64,000 nucleotides of DNA from NCBI GenBank assembly GCA_021234155.1, contig JAJEKV010000017.1, positions 5,933,901 through 5,997,900 of the forward strand, written 5' to 3'. The position numbers and the translations under genes are program-made. The stretch is from Isoetes taiwanensis (lineage: Eukaryota > Streptophyta > Lycopodiopsida > Isoetales > Isoetaceae). Of the stretch, positions 2,414 through 54,700 are shown in pieces; within the stretch, counting starts at the first letter, position 1; every line of letters starts with the position of its first letter. Below the pieces are notes generated by a model. The model saw nothing but the letters and a program-made list of their open reading frames with translations, had not been told where the DNA came from and did not search any database.

Positions 2414-5260
2414 TCTAGGGAAAGGTCCTTTGCAAAGCAATAACATCCGACACAAAGAGGAACCTACCTCCTCCAATCACAGACCAAGACTGCGAGCAAA
2501 AACAAGTAAGATCATCGAAAATCCATCAAAATATGCAGACTACCCTAGGACCGAGATAAATGGATAAAGAATAAAGCAGACATTGTGGAGCAAAGGAGCA
2601 ACAGAACAACAGGGAAATTAAGGCAGGAAGGAGAAGACAACGGGGGTAACTAGTGGTAAATTGAACAAAAAAGAGGGCCATTAGAGGCGATGAGGCACTT
2701 GACAACAAGGAGGTATGGTAAGGACCACTAAACAAGCAATGGACACCAACCATGAAAAATGAAGAAAAGCAGCATGAGGCCCAATGAACCAACACAAACT
2801 GTGCGAATGGAGCAACAAAAAACGAACGCAATGAAATGGATCAGTCAGACTACAAAGAAATGAGGAATCAACCAAAACAACAGTATGAGCAATGGAGCTG
2901 AAGAAGCAGAAGAACCATGCAGATAAAGGAAAAAACCTGGTGCCAAACATAGGCTAAACAATAGAAGGCCCGAATCCTATGGTAAAGACATTTATTGATA
3001 TCTTAAGAAGGAAATAATGATGATAAGTTGAAAAAGCGATGCACCAGCAAAGGACAATGGACTCAAGGTGACATCCTCATAGCCCGAACACAACTGAAAG
3101 CGTGGTAAGAACTACAAGAAACAAAAATAAGGGATAAAAGATGAATAGAACTAATGAGATAAGGGAATACTAGGAACCAACAAGACACAAGAACCGTGCG
3201 GGGTGCAGGAAACCAATAGTAAAATGGAAAATGATGCCAACAAGCGTAAAAACAGACTCTAATGAATCGGGCAACCTGGACAAAGAAAACTACAAAGATA
3301 AGAAAGCATGAATGTCTATCTCGCAAGGCCAATTCAGAAGATGAGCAACGAAATCATGAGCAAGGAAAATTAAAATAACAAAGCTAAACATTTATGAGTA
3401 AAGGAATAAACTCAAAATAAATGAATCCAACCAACCATGGAACAAGCAGAACAAGTGTGATTAAAGGCAATAGAACACGGCCGCTAGACATAGAACGGAG
3501 AGAAGGACAATTCGGGCAATGAAAGACTACGAGAGAAAAAACTCAGGAAAGGGAAGTGGCCGATGATCAGCTTGGAGGAATAAGGGGGAAGTGAGTAAGA
3601 CAAAATGTAACAAGAACTACAGAAGCAATGGAGCACAAGCAAGAGTGCAGGAGTCCATATAGGAAGAAACAAGATGACCGAAATAAGAACAAATATCAGG
3701 GCAGACACTATGAAAAATGAATAATGATAGTGGAACATCGAGATCGAAGAAATGAAGCGGCACATTGGTGATCAGGCCCTGAAGCAATGAGGCTGCAAAA
3801 CACAAGGTGGAAAGCATCAATAGAACTAAAAAGACCACTAACTATGGAACAGGCGAAGCAAAAGGAGGAAATTGGATAAAGGCAATAGAAAAACCTCCAG
3901 AACTAAAAGGCCGAGAGGAACAAATTCGACAATTGAACACATGAATAAGCTGGCTGAGGCAAGACAAAAGGCGAGAATATTGAAGGTGAAAAAACTAGCC
4001 ATCGAATGCAAAACCTAACAAGGAATGGTGGGAGGACGACGGAGACAAATGACACAAACTTCATAAAGATGATGCGAGCCAACCACGATTATGAACAAAT
4101 AATAAAGCCAAAACTATGGGGCAAATGGAATGCGTAAACAAATAAGGCACAAAAACCGAACACAAACCACAAACTATGACCATAACAACGAGCACATGAA
4201 AACAAACTGGAGAATCAATGCACCAACAATGACAGCGAAAAAACAATATGACAAACACTGTGAAAATCAAAGACTAAATTCCAACCTATATCATACTTGC
4301 ATAATGGACCAAACGAGCTTTCAAGATATACAAGACAACTTACATCGGGGACCCTCATGCTAATGAAGCAATATAGAGGATTAGACAGTATATGGAGACT
4401 ACAGGAAATGAATGGAATTATCTGGCACAGTCGAAAGATGACATTACGGAACCATAGAATAGAGCGGAACAGCTGGATGAACAACCCCAAACTAAGTGAA
4501 GACTAGACAACACTAGATAGAAAATACGCGAACAATGAAAAAACTGGGGGGAGGGAGAAGTGGAATAGGGCATAAAACTTGCTAATGAACATGGAAAGAT
4601 AAGAGGAACACGCTCACAATTGGACAAATGAACAAACTAATAATTCTATGAAGGAAAGAATGCAGAAAGAAGCATGCACCATACCCACCTATGCTTACCA
4701 CTAGAAACAAAGCTCAAGAACCTTATAGCAAAAAAAAAATAGAAGCAAATGAAATGGATGAAGAAATGGGATCATGAAAAGATGACTTGAGTACAAAAAT
4801 CGAAAGATCAAGGAATGAAAAAACAAACGAAGAGAACATCGTGAGATGCGTGGACTAAAAGGACAAATAGAGCAACTGGGACCACTGATGCAACAAATGT
4901 TGAATGGGACAAGACACTTATGCCAAACAAGGAAAGAAGAAGGAGAGAAGTCATGAGGCAAAAGAAACAGAGCAAGCACAGTGAATAGCAAATGAAACTA
5001 TAGGCAAGAGAGATGGAGAGAAAAGAGCCACCTCGAACTAAGCCAACGAACCATGTAATCATAGAAATAAACGAGCGAGGACTGGAACCCCATAACTTGC
5101 AGAACAAGATCAATAAATCCGAGGAGAACATGGAGAAACGAGTGTGCACCCTACTGCTAAAAACCCTATGGTACAAAGGACGCTACCCTAGACTACAAGG
5201 ATAGAAATCCCTGGAATAGCCAAGCAATGAATTAGACATTTGACTAAAGTTACTATATGC
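2414..5260. repeat. T-poor, A-rich degenerate long-period repeat block
   Basis: Nearly 2.8 kb in which the plus strand is visibly short of T (for example six T in 3841-3900). Phrases recur at about 415-bp spacing: taaaggcaatagaa at about 3463 and 3877, and variants of aac(c/t)atggaacaRgc at about 3436 and 3841. This suggests an old satellite-like array. The many minus-strand open frames rich in Phe, Leu, Ser and Cys follow from base composition and are not annotated as genes. Confidence 0.5.
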
Positions 5261-43935: not shown

Positions 43936-44363
43936 TAGAAAATGATTATGATATTTTGTAGTTCAAACTTCACTATAAAAAATGCATTTCGGTTATTAAC
44001 TTAACTTTTCTCAATTATCAAGTTTTTACTTTACTTGCAAGCTCTATCATTGGTATTGGCTTGTCGAGAATCCTTAGACACATGTTGCTCGACAAGCTCA
44101 TTGGGAATGAGAGGTCGTTCTAACTAATGTGTCACAAACGTCCCAATTTTTTTGTGAAACACTTGTACCAATGTGCACTTTCTCAACAAATCAGTTGAGA
44201 AAGTGAGACTTTCAGCCTCATTTCAACACATGAACCAGCTAGAAAACAAAGCACCTAGGGATATGTAAAAATGCGATTAGTCGCCTTCTGTAATGAAATA
44301 GCATGGTCGAAACAAAAGAAAACAAGGTCTTTGCAAGACCGGAGGGTTGCCCTCCATGGTAGG

Positions 44364-44387
44364 AAAAAAAAAAAAAAAAAAAAAAAC
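44364..44387. repeat. Poly(A) run on plus strand
   Basis: About 22 A. Could be a retroposon tail but no body was recognised. Confidence 0.9.
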
Positions 44388-44851
44388 CTAGTAAAAAGCA
44401 CACCAGAAGACTTTGGCAAGGTGACAACCAAATTACTTGTTACTTGTTTTTTTTTGCAATGCAAACAATTAGATTACTTGTTATTTTTTTATTGTTGTTA
44501 GAATGGGTTATTTTTAAGTGGTATTTTTTAGCCTTTAAGAATTTGTCTATATCTCAATGCTTGATCATGGTTTGACACCTAAAGGTCGGTCTTACACCAT
44601 ACAAATTGATATGGTGACATCAAATATGCATGTTCCAAAATGTTGACAGAGTGAATAAGATAGAATCCTGTAATCATCTAGATACACATTTGATTGGGCT
44701 TCAACATACAAGCAAGTAATTCCTATCTAGACATTTGTGAAGGAAAGCCAGCGTAAAGAATATTAGACATTTTCCTTACATTTGACTATTAGTAATTTTG
44801 GAATGATGTTTGCTCTCAAAATCCTCAAACTAGATCCTTTTATTCTTCTCT

Positions 44852-44956
44852 TGACGTACAGGCAACCAATAAATGCAACCAGAGTTTCTGCACCTAGCCC
44901 TTCTGACGTACAGGCAACCAATAAATGCAACCAGAGTTTCTGCACCTAGCCCTTCT
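44852..44956. repeat. Perfect 52-bp tandem duplication
   Basis: The unit starting tgacgtacaggcaaccaat at 44852 is repeated without change from 44904. A recent local slippage or repair event. Confidence 0.95.
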
Positions 44957-45875
44957 GTCTCATGGATACCTCCAAATCTCGGCAACATTTACGAAACGGC
45001 TCTGAAGCTGGATTTTAGAGTCAGTTTCACAGCTTGCCCCTCTTTCGTCTCACTGGAACTCGATTCAAAGAGGAAGTCGCTATATTGTATTTTCCTGGAC
45101 CGTCAATGTGAAAATTGAAGATAACGCAAAATTTTGAAGTAGCAGCACGGTGATAGGCTAGAATTGCAGGAAACTTTAGCACCCCAATCTACATTTTGTA
45201 GATAGCTGGACTGACTCAAATAAACAAGTCTTTGTAGTCTGTCAAATACTTAGTTCCTGAATCTACAAATGCATTTGGTATCAGTATGCATCATTGTGAT
45301 GTTAAAACACATCATATGGCTACATTCTTGGTTACAAAAGCACTATGCATAATTGGCCAGGACTTTTGCTGGGCTAAAATCTAAGAGCCTCAATCTTTCA
45401 AGCATCTGCACTGTAGATAGAGCAACAAGTCGGTTTTTAGTCCATTCAACTCTATGATGACTACCTGACTTTGCAACTTTTTTTTATATCATCTTGCCTT
45501 GAATCTGGAAAGTCCAAATGAAGAACATGCTGTTAATGAAGGCCAACAAGTAAAATTATGTGGAGGTTGATAATAGCAAATTATGCTATGGCATTGTGTT
45601 GCTCAGTGTTGCATTTCTGTTGCATTATGTTACATGCAAGTTCTAACATTATGTAAGACACTAGAAAAAGTGCCCAACGTTGCTGGGCTTTCTGTCAGGC
45701 ATAATTTCTAGGCAAATGTGATGTTGTGCGAATGAACGTTTAATGATTGATTAGAATGTGATATCAATCATATCTATAGGTTATGCAATAACCCCTTGTT
45801 ACTCTTTAGAAAGCAAAGGCCAATGTTATAGTTCACAATGGTTCAATGATGTATTTGAATAAGAGTTGCCGGGCG

Positions 45876-45903
45876 GGGGGGGGGGGGGCGGGGGGCGTGC
45901 AAC

Positions 45904-45953
<50 letters not shown>
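45876..45953. repeat. G-rich run followed by about 48-nt poly(A)
   Basis: A run of about 12 G, a second short G run, then gcgtgcaacc and a poly(A) of roughly 48 bases. This could be a retroposed tail or an assembly artefact. Confidence 0.9.
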
Positions 45954-45955
<2 letters not shown>

Positions 45956-45959
45956 CACT

Positions 45960-47210
45960 TGCAAGGGGATTGCGTGATCCTTGCGATTTAAATTAATAGA
46001 TTCGATTTTATAGGAATCTGACAATTAAGTGCAATGACTAAAACAAACGCGTCAAATAGCAAAGACTTGTATATATAGGTGCCATTTATAATGCAAAAGA
46101 TCAAGAAGAATTTCACGTGACTTTATGGGAACACTCAACATCTCCATGTCACCTCAACTTTTCACAACAAACATTCACATGTAAACTCCAGAAGCTACCA
46201 TAGAAAACATTTGAACGCGTGCCGGGATATACCACGTAAAAACATTTGAACGCATTTTCGTGATATTGTGCATCGTATCACAAGAATCAAAATGTTCAAT
46301 AATCGCCTCTTGTATCTTTAATAAAACACACACTTGGTACTTTTAAAATGCTACAAAGGAGAATTTATTTGTCATCTTAGCAACAGTCTATTCTGATTGC
46401 AGCTTCTTGTCAATTGCAAACAATTAAACAACATCCCCCAAGCATTAGGGCAATAATTATGGTAGTAGAATTGGAACAGATCAAGAGGGGGTCGTAAATA
46501 AAGAACAATAATAATGCAAGGAGAGAAGTAATAAAGGAGATCAAGAATGAATTTTTACCACAAAAACGACCTCACATTATCAGAGTGCGTAGTTCATGTG
46601 TAGAACAGCTGAATAAATCTTGCTTATCTTCTATTATAGAATATGTACAGATAATTTTAGTACAGAGGAGATATTATGTGTAACAATAAGCTGCATGAAC
46701 AACAACATAGTTGGTCTACAAATCTGAACAGAACCATTATTCATATCAAAAGTGGGTTGTTTATAGAACGTTCAGAGAGTATTTTGCAGCGTCTCTAAGC
46801 TTATATCTTCCTGGTTAGATACGCATTTCTTGTTGGCAGATGGCACTTGAGCAAGGCATCTACAATGAAAATTGCCATACTCCACAGGCCGTTTATTAAC
46901 ATGGTCTAATCTGAGGTGGTGAATCATTAGCTGTTCTCCAAAGGATAGCTGCACAAGCATCAGGGCTGCATGTAAAGAAAACTGCCAATGTTCAGTGGCA
47001 GAAAATATATATACATAGCATAGCTAGCTGTGTATACCAAAGGCTAAGCAATAATACCAGTAATACTAATTAAAACTACTCTAAGAAAAATATATAGAGG
47101 AAGATGAAGAACAATCTTTAGGAATACATCATAAATGTAACGCATAGATCACTTCCATAAATGCATGTCGGGCAGTAAGATATTAGCAATTATTGGTATA
47201 AAAGAGAGTT
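45960..47210. other. No gene recognised
   Basis: aaaacatttgaacgc appears twice (46206 and 46242), otherwise no repeat. A minus frame at 46960-46772 has mixed composition but no family resemblance; it could be another captured fragment. Confidence 0.35.
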
Positions 47211-47214
47211 CTCA

Positions 47215-47761
47215 ACAACCATATACGCAGAATGAGTACACAGCATTTTCAAGGATTAGCATCTTGTTCGCCGCGACCAATTGCAAAAGGCGTCTCGAGC
47301 CATTTTCACCAATGACAGTCGAGATAATTGGAACCTTCAATCCAAACCTTTGTCGCAGATTGGCAGCATTCGCCTCACTCTGGAGAAAATATGAAGTCAA
47401 AAAACATTGATTGCCAAGTCGTATCGTCATATGTAATGTACCTGACCACATTCTTCGGCTTCAATTCCTGCATATGCAACAGGAGTATTATCAAATGTAA
47501 GGAAATCCATGCTGCTCAGCATGCCTCGTTATTCTCAGTGCCTTGCGATACCTTCAAAATACAAATGCACAGTAAGATCTCAAGACATGTTAAACAATAT
47601 AGATAAGGAATCAAATACTAAAGAGGCCCTACCCATTAGGTGTAGGCATTGTAAATTTACGATAAATCTTCTTGTCTTCCTTCCCTTTTGCTGCCCAATA
47701 AACATGAAACTCATGCCATCCATCATTTCGGTCCTCATGACCATAGCTGGGTCATGATATC
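47215..47761 (-). pseudogene. CAC3: Plastid acetyl-CoA carboxylase alpha-subunit gene fragment, intron-containing
   Basis: Minus-strand pieces match carboxyltransferase alpha (AccA family). Exon a, 47761-47633: YHDPAMVMRTEMMDGMSFMF and IGQQKGRKT, with a one-base frame change before YRKFTMPTPNG. Exon b, 47551-47442: YRKALR and HAEQHGFP, then [15 protein letters not shown]. Exon c, 47379 to about 47215: [36 protein letters not shown]. Splice-like sites remain (CTGCAG before a; GTAGGG after a; GTACAT after b; CTCCAG before c), so it came from genomic DNA. The Gly-rich GEGGSGGALAIG that normally follows VxGE is ruined, and N- and C-termini are missing. Confidence 0.85.
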
Positions 47762-47806
47762 CTGCAGAGTTGAGCCAACATGGGGCACATTATAATAAGA
47801 GCTGAT

Positions 47807-47950
47807 TCAAAGGGAAACAATGCATGCCTTATCAGTCATATTGAGGACATGGTTCAGAATGTTATTCTGCTGCAACATGTTTCTTGAAATGTTCAATGGC
47901 AGATCTTCTGAATCCACAACGCCCTTAATGATGAATACCCTAGTGTCACG
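47807..47950 (-). pseudogene. HSP90-family gene fragment
   Basis: The minus frame reads RVFIIKGVVDSEDLPLNISR followed by NMLQQNNILNHVL. GVVDSEDLPLNISRE-LQ is a signature of the HSP90 middle domain. Between RVFI and KGVVDS about 20 residues of the usual sequence are missing, implying an internal deletion or lost intron context. No other HSP90 domain is nearby, so it is an isolated fragment about 45 codons long. Confidence 0.8.
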
Positions 47951-48599
47951 AGTTGCAGTGAATGATCCACCCAAGAAATGATACTTGTTGCATGTCTTAT
48001 AACCCCATGAACAATTGACAATGTTGATGATGTAGTCGATAAAAAGAAAAAGTGGCATTTTTAAATGAATGTTCTAAAGGCACCAAACTGAATGCCAATC
48101 TACGTATGAATGAAACTGAATGCCAAACTGAATCACGCTGGTTGCAACAGTAGCAAGCCTTAGAAGTGCCAGTTTATTCTTCAAACAGATATGCATCATG
48201 AAAGATGCATGGACAAAAAACATGAAACGCAGGACGACATATGTGCAGCCACCAATTCCTAGCTAAGCTGTCAATTGTCATTGAGCCAAGACGCCAACCA
48301 TCTATAAATCATATTTATCCGGGAGAAGAACCAAAGCTATACAGAGAAGATAACAACGGAGTTTATGGTAGGACAACCACCTGTATAATAAATATTGATG
48401 TGAGGTTAAAGGATTCCTGTTGATATTGATTGTTTGCCACAGAAAGCATGACCAGGGACATGTCAATGCAATCGTGTGCAAATTTGTGATGTTCGCCCAT
48501 TCAATTAGGCAATTGGGTAATCGGATAATATATCGTGGTTGCAATGACCTCAAAAACTTGTTGGAAAACTAAAGCTCCATAATCGATGCATTTGAATGC

Positions 48600-48860
48600 T
48601 TCGCTCCAAAGTATTGTTTACCTATTCCAGAGTTTTCCTTGCAAAGATAGATTTCCAAGCACCGGAAAAGATAACTTCAACTATCATCTTCAATGCCGAT
48701 AAGTGCATTTTTGCCTCACCAAGTGATCCACATTTCGCATACATATCAACCAAAGCACTGCCAACCAAAGGAGATGTTTGAAGTCGTCTTTGGGCTGCCT
48801 ATCTGACACTTTTGGAAGCCTGTATGCCAAGCTTTAATGATCCATCGTATGCATAGAAAA
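48600..48860 (-). pseudogene. Pentatricopeptide-repeat (PPR) gene fragment
   Basis: The minus frame contains QTSPLVGSALVDMYAKCGSL and GEAKMHL. GSALVDMYAKCGSLxxA is the classic repeat motif of plant PLS-class PPR proteins that act in organelle RNA processing and editing. Upstream GSLKLGIQASKSV is a degraded preceding repeat, broken by a stop. Less than two repeats remain from proteins that usually carry ten or more, so this is a fragment, in the same orientation as the HSP90 and carboxylase pieces. Confidence 0.75.
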
Positions 48861-48899
48861 GCCCAAGAACCCAGGAGTGAAGCTTGTTGAGCGGTCTTT

Positions 48900-49330
48900 G
48901 TGCAGCTAAGGGCCTAGGAAGAAGTTGGAGCTACAGCACCCACCATCGCCAGAACACCACCAGTTATCCGGTTTCCAAGAGTGCTGCCCACTAACACAAG
49001 TGACCGAGCATTTACAGACAATAATGGGTTTTTAGCAGTCATCGGCATATTCTGGGCATATACTGGCATATACCCCACATAAACAAGGGTTTGCCCCCTT
49101 AGGGGCAACCCAAAAAGGAAATGAATGAGCCTCCCTTTGATCAAATAGAGCTTGAATACATGCTGGCATGGTTTTACAACAATGATAGAACACCAACAAG
49201 ACTTCAAATAAAGGGAATAAGCAGCAAAGATCGAATAAGGAAGATAACTAGGACAACTCACAGAAAGCACGATGGGAAATTCAACATGACACGTCTTCAT
49301 TAAGAAAAAGCAAATGCTTTTAATGTGGAG
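48900..49330. other. Possible further captured fragment, unidentified
   Basis: A minus frame (49100-48914) reads NPLLSVNARSLVLVGSTLGN and RITGGVLAMVGAV. A plus frame (49121-49303) reads FDQIELEYMLAWFYNND. Either may be coding relics; neither was recognised. Confidence 0.3.
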
Positions 49331-52560: not shown

Positions 52561-52800
52561 CTAGAAATAAGGCACAGGTGTTGTATGTCTAGAAATAAGG
52601 CACAGGTGTTGTATGTCTTAGCTTCCTATTTTGTCCTGCAAAATGTTCAGGTTAAAGCATCAGAGGTTGCAATCCTTGTGGCAGAGAACATAGTATATTC
52701 TAATAAAAACAAAATCAGGGTTTACCAAAGAAAAAGGCATCAGATTTGCAATCCTTGTTTAGGTTATTCTAATAAAAACAAAATCAGGACTTACCAAAGA
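52561..52800. repeat. Two tandem duplications at the 3' end of the FAS1 gene
   Basis: A 29-bp unit (ctagaaataaggcacaggtg...) is repeated at 52561 and 52590, and a longer unit (ttctaataaaaacaaaatca through ttaccaaagaaaaaggcat) at about 52697 and 52768. The second includes the splice donor region of the gene, so the donor-like TTTGGTAA occurs twice. Confidence 0.85.
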
Positions 52801-54121
52801 AAAAGGCATGGAAAGCTTCAGAGATTCCTCTTCTATGAGAATGAGCTTGTGGGGATGGAGCTGGAGCACTGTGAGAAGGAGATGGAGATGGAGATGGAGA
52901 ATCCGAAGAAGAAACTTGAGGCATAAGGACATTGTTAATGCCTTGAACAGCAATTCTCCCATCTGCGTAAATATCATGGTCATACAACAAAGCAGCATGC
53001 TTTCCTTCACCAAATTCCACAGTTCCATCAGCTTCCTTGGCCTTCAGCTTAAACGAACTTCTTAGAGTTTCAAATGTAACCTGCCCATGAGTTCTAACCA
53101 AATGATACAAGCTTTCCTCTGTCTGATACTCGGGAATAATATGATAGGTTAAAAGTGCCTCAATTCCCCCTGGCTCATTCAGATGCTCAAGGCTCAGATT
53201 TCCAATAGCCTTATCATCTGGAGCTAACACAGTTACTCTGTGCCCTTCATTCACAAGCCTTGCTATTTCTGATGCAAATGAAGTTAAGTTAACAAGCAAA
53301 TCTGCAATCTCATTGTATCCGCCATATTTTACCAACGCAGAAACAAAATCTGATACTCTCTCATCTCCATTTGCTCCGTATAGGTCTCCATCTGGACTTG
53401 GAGCTGGTGCACAGCCAATGTCAAACTCAGATGATTCATGTTTGTGCTTGACAATATGATCTGGAGCATCTTTTTGGATAACTGGCTTTGCCAGAAGGAT
53501 GGCTGACAGATCCAATACGGGAGCCCCTGTTGGAAACAGAGCAGGCTCCACGTTTTCTAATCTTTTGGCACTGTATGCTTTTTCCACTGCCTCGGGAATT
53601 AATAATCCATAGATTCCATGCACAATGCCATCGTCCCTAATAATAGAATCTGGAGAAACTAAGCTAAATCTTTCTACCTTAAATTCATTTTCTTGCTGTG
53701 AAATATGAAGGGGATCATTTGATAAAGAAACAATAGTCCCGTTTTTCCACTCTGCAGAACCAATCCGTTGATCTATTACATGGCATTTTAGCACTCTCTG
53801 AAGAGCCTTCAAATTGGCGGGTTGCAACAAATAAGCTTTGAACTCGGAATCAAATTGATGCTCAAAATATTCATTCTCAAATGCAAAAATTGTCACATTT
53901 CCGTTAGAAACAGTACCTTCTAACAAATGCAAGAGCCCAGCTGCTTCAATGAGCTCCACCATATCTGTATAATGCGACTCAAGCAATGCTGCTAGAACGG
54001 AACTTGATGCAGGAGCTGATAAACTGTCGGATTTCGAAGCAGAAACAAAATCTGGGAATGAGCAGAGAAACAATGCGGCCCAAGAGAGGCTTAAAAAGTG
54101 CATCATCCGGCATCCCGCCAT
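52589..54121 (-). CDS. Fasciclin-like arabinogalactan protein, two FAS1 domains
   Basis: Cell-surface or cell-wall glycoprotein with adhesion-type FAS1 domains. Exon 1 (54121-52795) starts with a signal peptide (hydrophobic HFLSLSWAALFLCSFPDF then VSA). FAS1 domain 1 spans about residues 38-175 (NVTIFAFENEYF, LQRVLKCHVID) and domain 2 about 245-395 (HRVTVLAPDDKAIGNL, EALLTYHIIPEY). Then comes a Ser/Pro/Ala-rich arabinogalactan module (SPSPSPSPSHSAPAPSP). A strong donor G|GTAAGT ends exon 1 at 52795. A TTTTGCAG acceptor gives a 47-nt last exon (52635-52589), making about 457 residues in frame, like Arabidopsis FLA15-18. No GPI signal is evident. Second-exon choice is inference. MMHFL, five codons in, is an alternative start. 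Confidence 0.85.
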
Positions 54122-54700
54122 AGCTGAAGGGATTTAGATTTACCTATTGTGATCAAATGAAAAAAATGCAAGGATAGATCCACCGGATTTGCAAGCACAA
54201 AACGGCTTGAAAGGAGGGAGAAGAAGAGCGCGAGAGCATCTAATACGCAGAAGAAAACGCGCTTATGACCGCGACATGAGCTGGCGACGGCGAGGATTAG
54301 GCGCAGCCACGTGGCGTCATCGGGGCGGGTGCTGGCACGGGGGCTGGACAGGTGGGATGGTACGAGGGGTTGCAAGGTGATTGGATCGGGGCCGTTGAAT
54401 ATAAAACTGAAGGCATTATTGTCGGCGTCGGAAAGAGGGTTCCTAAGTTTACAGGCTGTCAGTGACCGGATTATAGATTCTCAAAATCGCCGGGAAAGCG
54501 CGGCGAAAGAATTGAACTTTTAGACCGGCGCCCAGCCTCCAAGGCCTTTTCCGCTTTAGCATAAAATACGATCCTGTTTTTCCATTGGTCCTATGATCAC
54601 CTATAATTTGTCGACACGTACGTCGTGTCCATACATACGTCTTTGTCATGTCTTTTATGTACCATACATGGGACCACATATGTTTTGTGTATTTTTCTGC
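54122..54700 (-). promoter_or_regulatory. Upstream region of the FAS1 gene
   Basis: Likely 5' UTR and promoter of the gene starting at 54121. It is more GC-rich than its surroundings (54200-54540) and without other coding evidence. No clear TATA box was picked out at a sensible distance. Confidence 0.4.

Follow-up and report, generated by a model that had tools for sequence, protein, structure and literature searches.

Host gene fragments in Isoetes taiwanensis as the probable cargo of a non-autonomous Helitron2-type transposon

This analysis concerns a cluster of gene fragments in Isoetes taiwanensis, lying in a stretch of 64,000 nucleotides (C985:5933901-5997900, hereafter the window) that was searched against the 1,658,258,908-base assembly of 1110 pieces. 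An earlier note had described minus-strand pieces of a PPR gene, an HSP90 gene and a plastid acetyl-CoA carboxylase alpha gene (ACCA) within 1.6 kb, and all three proved to be real and to lie on the minus strand, by Pfam and PDB matches for ACCA and HSP90 and by DNA identity for PPR. The ACCA piece matched PF03255 (E 4.2e-11), with two more exon matches that were weak (0.0021 and 0.0031), the HSP90 piece matched PF00183 (E 1.1e-10), and the PDB matches of the two pieces were carboxyltransferase alpha subunits and HSP90s. The PPR piece gave no match of its own in the Pfam search; its 82 bp show 97.6% DNA identity to a 400-codon open PPR frame on contig C1030, and it also matches a hand-typed PPR consensus (E 3.9e-7). 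A genomic ACCA locus aligns with the carboxylase piece through the inter-exon sequence, so that introns are kept and the source was genomic DNA, as had been proposed. The pieces are small (only 82 bp for PPR and 77-86 bp for HSP90), except that the carboxylase piece continues to about 46917, beyond the interval originally given. The common orientation stands, and since further segments separate the PPR and HSP90 pieces, the interval is a mosaic of at least seven segments.

Over a longer span, the sequence comparisons indicate a mosaic of about a dozen segments of host DNA. Donor alignments used the majority consensus of ten copies as query, with positions mapped to the window. Read 5' to 3' on the minus strand, the segments are as follows.

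48793 to 49112, minus: 5' module common to otherwise different elements (first ~90-200 bases in 10 sampled others; 48793-49080 in L047, where it reaches the edge of the fetched stretch)
48711 to 48792, minus: putative captured PPR exon piece, sense (97.6% to the open PPR frame on C1030)
48565 to 48710, minus: putative captured segment of 146 bp (96% to C1056:10012k and C985:16174k; a third place matched too)
48428 to 48550, minus: putative captured segment (C907:11618k, 91% over 87 columns and 97% over 37)
47942 to 48429, minus: putative captured segment or segments (C907:11651k, 92% at 48147-48429 and 93% at 47942-47969; C985:4264k, 77% at 47969-48342)
47853 to 47939, minus: putative captured HSP90 exon piece, sense (C1054 open exon, 96% over 77 bp; C1103, 95% over 86 bp; Pfam)
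46917 to 47859, minus: putative captured ACCA piece with introns, sense (C257 ACCA locus, 86% over 673 columns and 93% over 326 columns; Pfam)
46816 to 46920, minus: 105-bp segment with the same edges elsewhere (C952 twice, C1, C1052 and C1060; 74-87% identity)
45660 to 46816, minus: segment or segments common to a second ACCA-bearing subfamily (C1034 twice, C1037, C286 and C1051; partly C1027:11713k)
45489 to 45660, minus: 172-bp segment sharply bounded at 45489 (11 other rows, 93-100% identity)
45154 to 45489, minus: segment matching C1081:6488k (97% over 336 bp)
Between the C1081-matching segment and the 3' module: a remainder
44340 to 44816, minus: 3' module common to other places (C1039, C1052, C1067, C951 and C952; 84-97%, ending at 44816)

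The donor-like PPR and HSP90 loci have open reading frames that match Pfam strongly, and the ACCA locus on C257 keeps its exon frames in the 1.7 kb read. Segments 48550-48428 and 48429-47942 match places on C907 that are 33 kb apart. Neighbouring segments overlap by 0-2 bases at the joints read, and by up to ~4 at 46917; an overlap of 7 bases at the ACCA/HSP90 joint was considered and dropped, as the alignment shows about 1 base. The subfamily on C1034, C1037, C286 and C1051 has segments and ACCA pieces in common with the window copy at ~74-97%, the part 45660-45868 being listed for four of the five places, and by eye one of its stretches (L040) contains further upstream ACCA exons. These loci were rejected as the ACCA donor gene and are more likely a sister element, because they also have the non-ACCA segments in common and their match passes the 46917 joint by 13 bases. 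Separately, C1027:5730462-5731526 is 94% identical to window positions 44375-45489 and ends exactly at the 45489 joint. A 52-bp tandem duplication lies inside the element at 44868-44960, where the copy on C1029 is without the 52 bp. At L046 (C985:16174500-16175100), the 5' end of another family member and a copy of the 48565-48710 segment are 186 bp apart and oppositely oriented.

The search for parent genes and for other copies of the mosaic found donor-like loci and 13 further loci. With the 1646-base interval as query, 46 rows were obtained from the best 40 of 129 candidates scored; among these, the element was found at 14 loci, of which five are partial or split (C920, C1038, C996, C1050 and C941) and nine, including the window, hold nearly all of the query. 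The remaining rows were mostly short donor-like matches. Chance assembly is excluded because of the 13 further loci, eight with nearly the whole interval and five with part of it. When 20 kb was fetched around ten of the 13, the similarity between copies spanned ~44316 to 49116. The right end stopped at the same point in all ten, running on by chance for 1 base in C1038 and 6 bases in C324, while the left end was intact in the window and five copies, and elsewhere truncated, split, rearranged or diverged. The window and nine other copies (C920, C996, C1050 and C941 were left out) aligned at 92.4-98.8% pairwise identity. The boundaries had been predicted at about 46.9-49.7 kb; the copy alignments place the ends at about 44322 and 49112 instead. 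A 449-codon open frame on the minus strand at 52784-54133, by eye a putative intact fasciclin-like protein gene, lies 3.7 kb past the element.

The mosaic might be expressed, and might regulate its parent genes or compete with them by way of chimeric transcripts or small RNAs. The sense orientation of its pieces and their 77-98% identity to donor-like loci speak for such a role, but no sense stop-to-stop frame exceeds 144 codons in the ten aligned copies, or 88 in that of the window, and we hold the idea to be improbable. The cargo is broken and is most likely carried as a passenger; it may still influence its parent genes by either kind of RNA.

The preferred explanation is that the gene fragments are cargo of a non-autonomous rolling-circle transposon, whose ends are given here with positions on the plus strand.

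44322 to 49112, minus: putative whole non-autonomous Helitron2-type element, 4791 bp (copy alignments and ends)
49087 to 49111, minus: 5' terminal hairpin, 25 nt (DNA fold -10.6 kcal/mol, z -2.38)
49103 to 49111: 5' inverted-repeat member, GGGTTGCCC on the minus strand
44344 to 44352: 3' inverted-repeat member, GGGCAACCC
44326 to 44355, minus: 3' end, made up of a 15-nt palindrome that includes GGGCAACCC, the terminal hairpin GGTCTTGCAAAGACC and TTGT (DNA fold -9.6 kcal/mol, z -2.85)

On the minus strand the element reads, 5' to 3', T^GGGTTGCCCC TAA GGGGGCAAACCC TTGTTT ... GGAGGGCAACCCTCC (hairpin) CTTGT^T, with carets at the cuts; at the 5' end, up to four T (A on the plus strand, 49113-49116) can be assigned to either element or target. 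By eye, the 5' hairpin is retained in several diverged relatives. The 3' hairpin has a 6-bp stem in the window (GGTCTTGCAAAGACC) and a 4-bp stem in four other intact copies (GTGCGCAGCAC), and both fold; the stem is variable, and in C1029, C973 and C324 it looks poorly formed by eye, so that compensatory change in it is only partly supported. The two ends have a 9-bp inverted repeat in common, placed asymmetrically: GGGTTGCCC is 1 bp from the 5' end, provided that a single T opens the element, and GGGCAACCC is 22 bp from the 3' end in the window and 19 bp in other copies, as read from the sequence. Helitron2 elements are defined by hairpins at both ends and an asymmetric terminal inverted repeat of 8-15 bp, the 5' member lying 0-2 bp and the 3' member ~20-30 bp from the end (PMC3627910). 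The corresponding features found here are the 5' hairpin, the 3' hairpin with a repeat member upstream, and the asymmetric inverted repeat.

A canonical Helitron (Helitron1) would share the rolling-circle type and the 3' hairpin, and Helitron Rep genes are present in the genome. The 5'-TC and 3'-CTRR that the earlier note had suggested as ends are absent, however, the element instead ending in TGGG...CTTGT; the target is not A/T, and there is a hairpin at the 5' end too, making this identity quite unlikely.

Insertion sites were approached by joining the flanks of six copies (window, C1059, C1033, C1068, C1072 and L029) as queries. Among the 40 rows scored, 12 were the filled sites themselves and 28 cross the joint and are therefore unfilled (21 for C1068, 3 for C1072 and 4 for L029); seven of the 28 were read. 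No unfilled relative of the window, C1059 or C1033 sites was among these 40 rows, and the unfilled sites read belong to sister copies rather than to the window insertion. At C1068, the unfilled ATATTTTTTATTTTC (L057) becomes ATATTTT^T...T^TTATTTTC, and hence the element brings two T and makes no target duplication. Another unfilled sequence, L058, has ATATTCTTTATTTTC; both it and L059 fit this reading, a single C interrupting the T-run. At the C1072 site the three unfilled relatives (L060, L061 and L063) have CATTTTCC, in which TTTTCC is not a pure T-run but is compatible with the C1068 reading. The L029 relative is so T-rich and diverged that the exact position of the joint is lost. Insertion is at T-rich sites without target duplication, exactly placed for one sister insertion and compatible for two. 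The Helitron2 target is given as lying between TTTT and T/C (PMC5148889), and TTTT^T/C without a fixed duplication is what was found.

The earlier note's other candidate, a Pack-MULE or another cut-and-paste transposon that captured the fragments, has some appeal in that Pack-MULEs also make multi-gene mosaics in plants. Such elements have long terminal inverted repeats and make an 8-11 bp target duplication. In this family the two ends share just the asymmetric 9-bp repeat where bounding inverted repeats had been looked for, and no 8-11 bp duplication was seen in the filled and unfilled sites read, so that we consider this origin very improbable.

That the locus is a segmental duplication, or a row of decayed neighbouring genes, is hardly credible: the copies on C1029 and C1068 do have both flanks in common, but the other copies compared have different flanks and common ends, unfilled relatives exist, and the donor-like loci sit elsewhere. 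The locus did not turn out to be the remains of three full-length neighbouring genes, nor to lack other copies or a boundary. At least one filled site has been duplicated, because C1029 and C1068 share both flanks. These two copies (C1029:15.58M and C1068:8.44M; L021/L022 and L013/L014) are 95.1% identical with different 3' terminal stems, and their common flank is itself repetitive (21 unfilled rows), which makes it probable that duplication of a filled repeat was followed by a change at one end.

The fragments are thus, very probably, the cargo of a non-autonomous Helitron2-type rolling-circle transposon carrying a patchwork of host DNA (about 44322-49112, minus strand). Of the two capture routes first proposed, a Helitron-type one has held, with many copies, defined ends, unfilled sister sites and donor-like loci, while both Pack-MULE capture (no long terminal inverted repeats or duplication) and a canonical Helitron (no 5'-TC/3'-CTRR) gave way to ends of the Helitron2 type.

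Helitron Rep genes are abundant in the assembly (the best 150 of 1813 candidates were scored). Five Rep loci were picked for different match ranges, and the family terminus was absent from the 3.2 kb read upstream of each (5.7 kb for one). None of the loci read showed a Rep-coding element bounded by these ends, and because no Rep gene is tied to the ends, the mobilising enzyme is deduced from end structure alone. One Rep-coding element (L051/L052; C907:35633377-35639077 and C1042:6975654-6978854) is present in two copies 97.7% alike over 3.2 kb, and its own ends were not found in the stretches read. PPR-like scraps were seen by eye further upstream of one of these copies (L056), and L054 has a TTTTGGGGAACCCC stretch at 1249.

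A plausible sequence of events would have a Rep/helicase from an autonomous relative nick at the 5' hairpin and peel off one strand, stopping at the 3' palindrome and hairpin. Host pieces may have been picked up at the DNA level over several rounds, whether through read-through, template switching or end-joining filler, and the captured patchwork would then have been multiplied. Capture by read-through has been shown for a bat Helitron (PMC4778049). The common cargo of the C1034-type subfamily, together with its further upstream ACCA exons, fits stepwise rebuilding as described for maize (PMC3288121).

The ends occur widely across the genome. A 33-base 5' end, allowing up to 3 mismatches, was found at 5215 places (2651+2564), and the commoner 35-base 3' end at 3787 places (1917+1870), the reversed control giving 0 in both cases; the 3' end of the window copy is not counted in the 3787, because its stem differs. 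As a rough inference, 5215 elements of ~5 kb each would amount to ~26 Mb, or 1.6% of the assembly. Pairing compared 56 of 100 listed 5' places with 100 listed 3' places (the other 44 being on contigs beyond the 3' list); among the matches listed, at least nine pairs lay within 15 kb, and eight of the nine were in the right order and orientation, spanning 0.7-10.5 kb, with two using one 3' end. A further ten 5' ends (L029-L038), all of them exact matches at the head of the list and hence a non-random sample, have the first ~90-200 bases in common, after which their interiors differ, apart from L029 and L034, which form one subfamily. In L032 (C101:293616-296748) the 5' module looks split: bases 1-98 sit at the end and a further part lies ~1.6 kb inside, as though other sequence had been inserted into it.

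The PPR, HSP90 and ACCA pieces of the window are all sense to the element. In ten other elements, a search of 126 of the 130 sense ORFs (≥48 codons) matched 11 Pfam families at E ≤0.01, a threshold at which ~1 chance match is expected per ORF set: four PPR families (best 1.2e-14), MA3 (1.1e-19), AAA (1.9e-10) and five marginal ones (0.0028-0.0096). The antisense ORFs (139 of 146 searched) gave one marginal match (E 0.0026). PPR matches were sense at L030, L036 and L037, with no antisense PPR match in that search; AAA was sense at L031, and L033 has MIF4G (E 0.0035) and, assigned by eye, MA3. Sense gene fragments appear clear at four of the ten loci and probable at a fifth, in a sample that is small and in which some stretches may pass the element end. 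Maize Helitrons show a similar orientation bias. Sense cargo in another group of Helitrons is relevant to the question whether such bias reflects the mechanism of capture or selection. It is a tempting idea, though on present evidence an unlikely one, that Helitron2 elements, and not just canonical Helitrons, can shuffle genes genome-wide in a plant, with one-direction uptake owing to a link between capture and the displaced or transcribed strand of active genes. If this were true, thousands of sense mosaics would have been annotated as host genes or overlooked as repeats, and both gene counts and estimates of recent duplication in this lycophyte would be skewed.

The SMo in Helitron-5_SMo, one of the elements resembling the present family, we take to be Selaginella moellendorffii. 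It belongs to the Helitron2 group (Bao & Jurka 2013, PMC3627910), described as having, as here, hairpins at both ends and a 5'-T; the present family differs from that description in its cargo of host gene fragments, in having its ends by the thousand in a single plant genome, and in being without a linked autonomous partner. Maize Helitrons (Dong et al. 2011, PMC3288121) are alike in having several gene fragments per element, stepwise build-up and common termini with different interiors, but are reported with canonical ends (CTAG) where Helitron2 ends are found here. Helentrons and HINEs, as portrayed in PMC4067079, are relatives of Helitron2 with a T-rich target and T on both ends, an endonuclease domain fused to RepHel in the autonomous copy being the Helentron's feature. 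FoHeli of Fusarium oxysporum (PMC5148889) is described with asymmetric terminal inverted repeats, an affinity to Helitron2 and, in two subgroups, hairpins at both ends as here, but differs in terminal sequences, target and fungal host. Pack-MULE and Pack-TYPE elements, in the account of PMC8903248, likewise capture and shuffle host coding DNA, whereas the present element has neither terminal inverted repeats nor a target duplication.

As far as the literature searched shows, the family is new and undescribed, a known kind in a new lineage; among papers naming Isoetes and Helitron, none was on Isoetes transposons by title, and the word helitron is absent from the main text of the Isoetes taiwanensis genome paper (PMC8566536). 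The finding adds a large Helitron2 family carrying gene fragments in this species. In that paper the repeat library was filtered by BLASTx against plant proteins to spare PPR genes (PMC8566536), and so gene-carrying Helitrons may have been discarded or missed. Since the filter could discard such elements, the published gene models and low-Ks duplicates of Isoetes taiwanensis deserve a second look.
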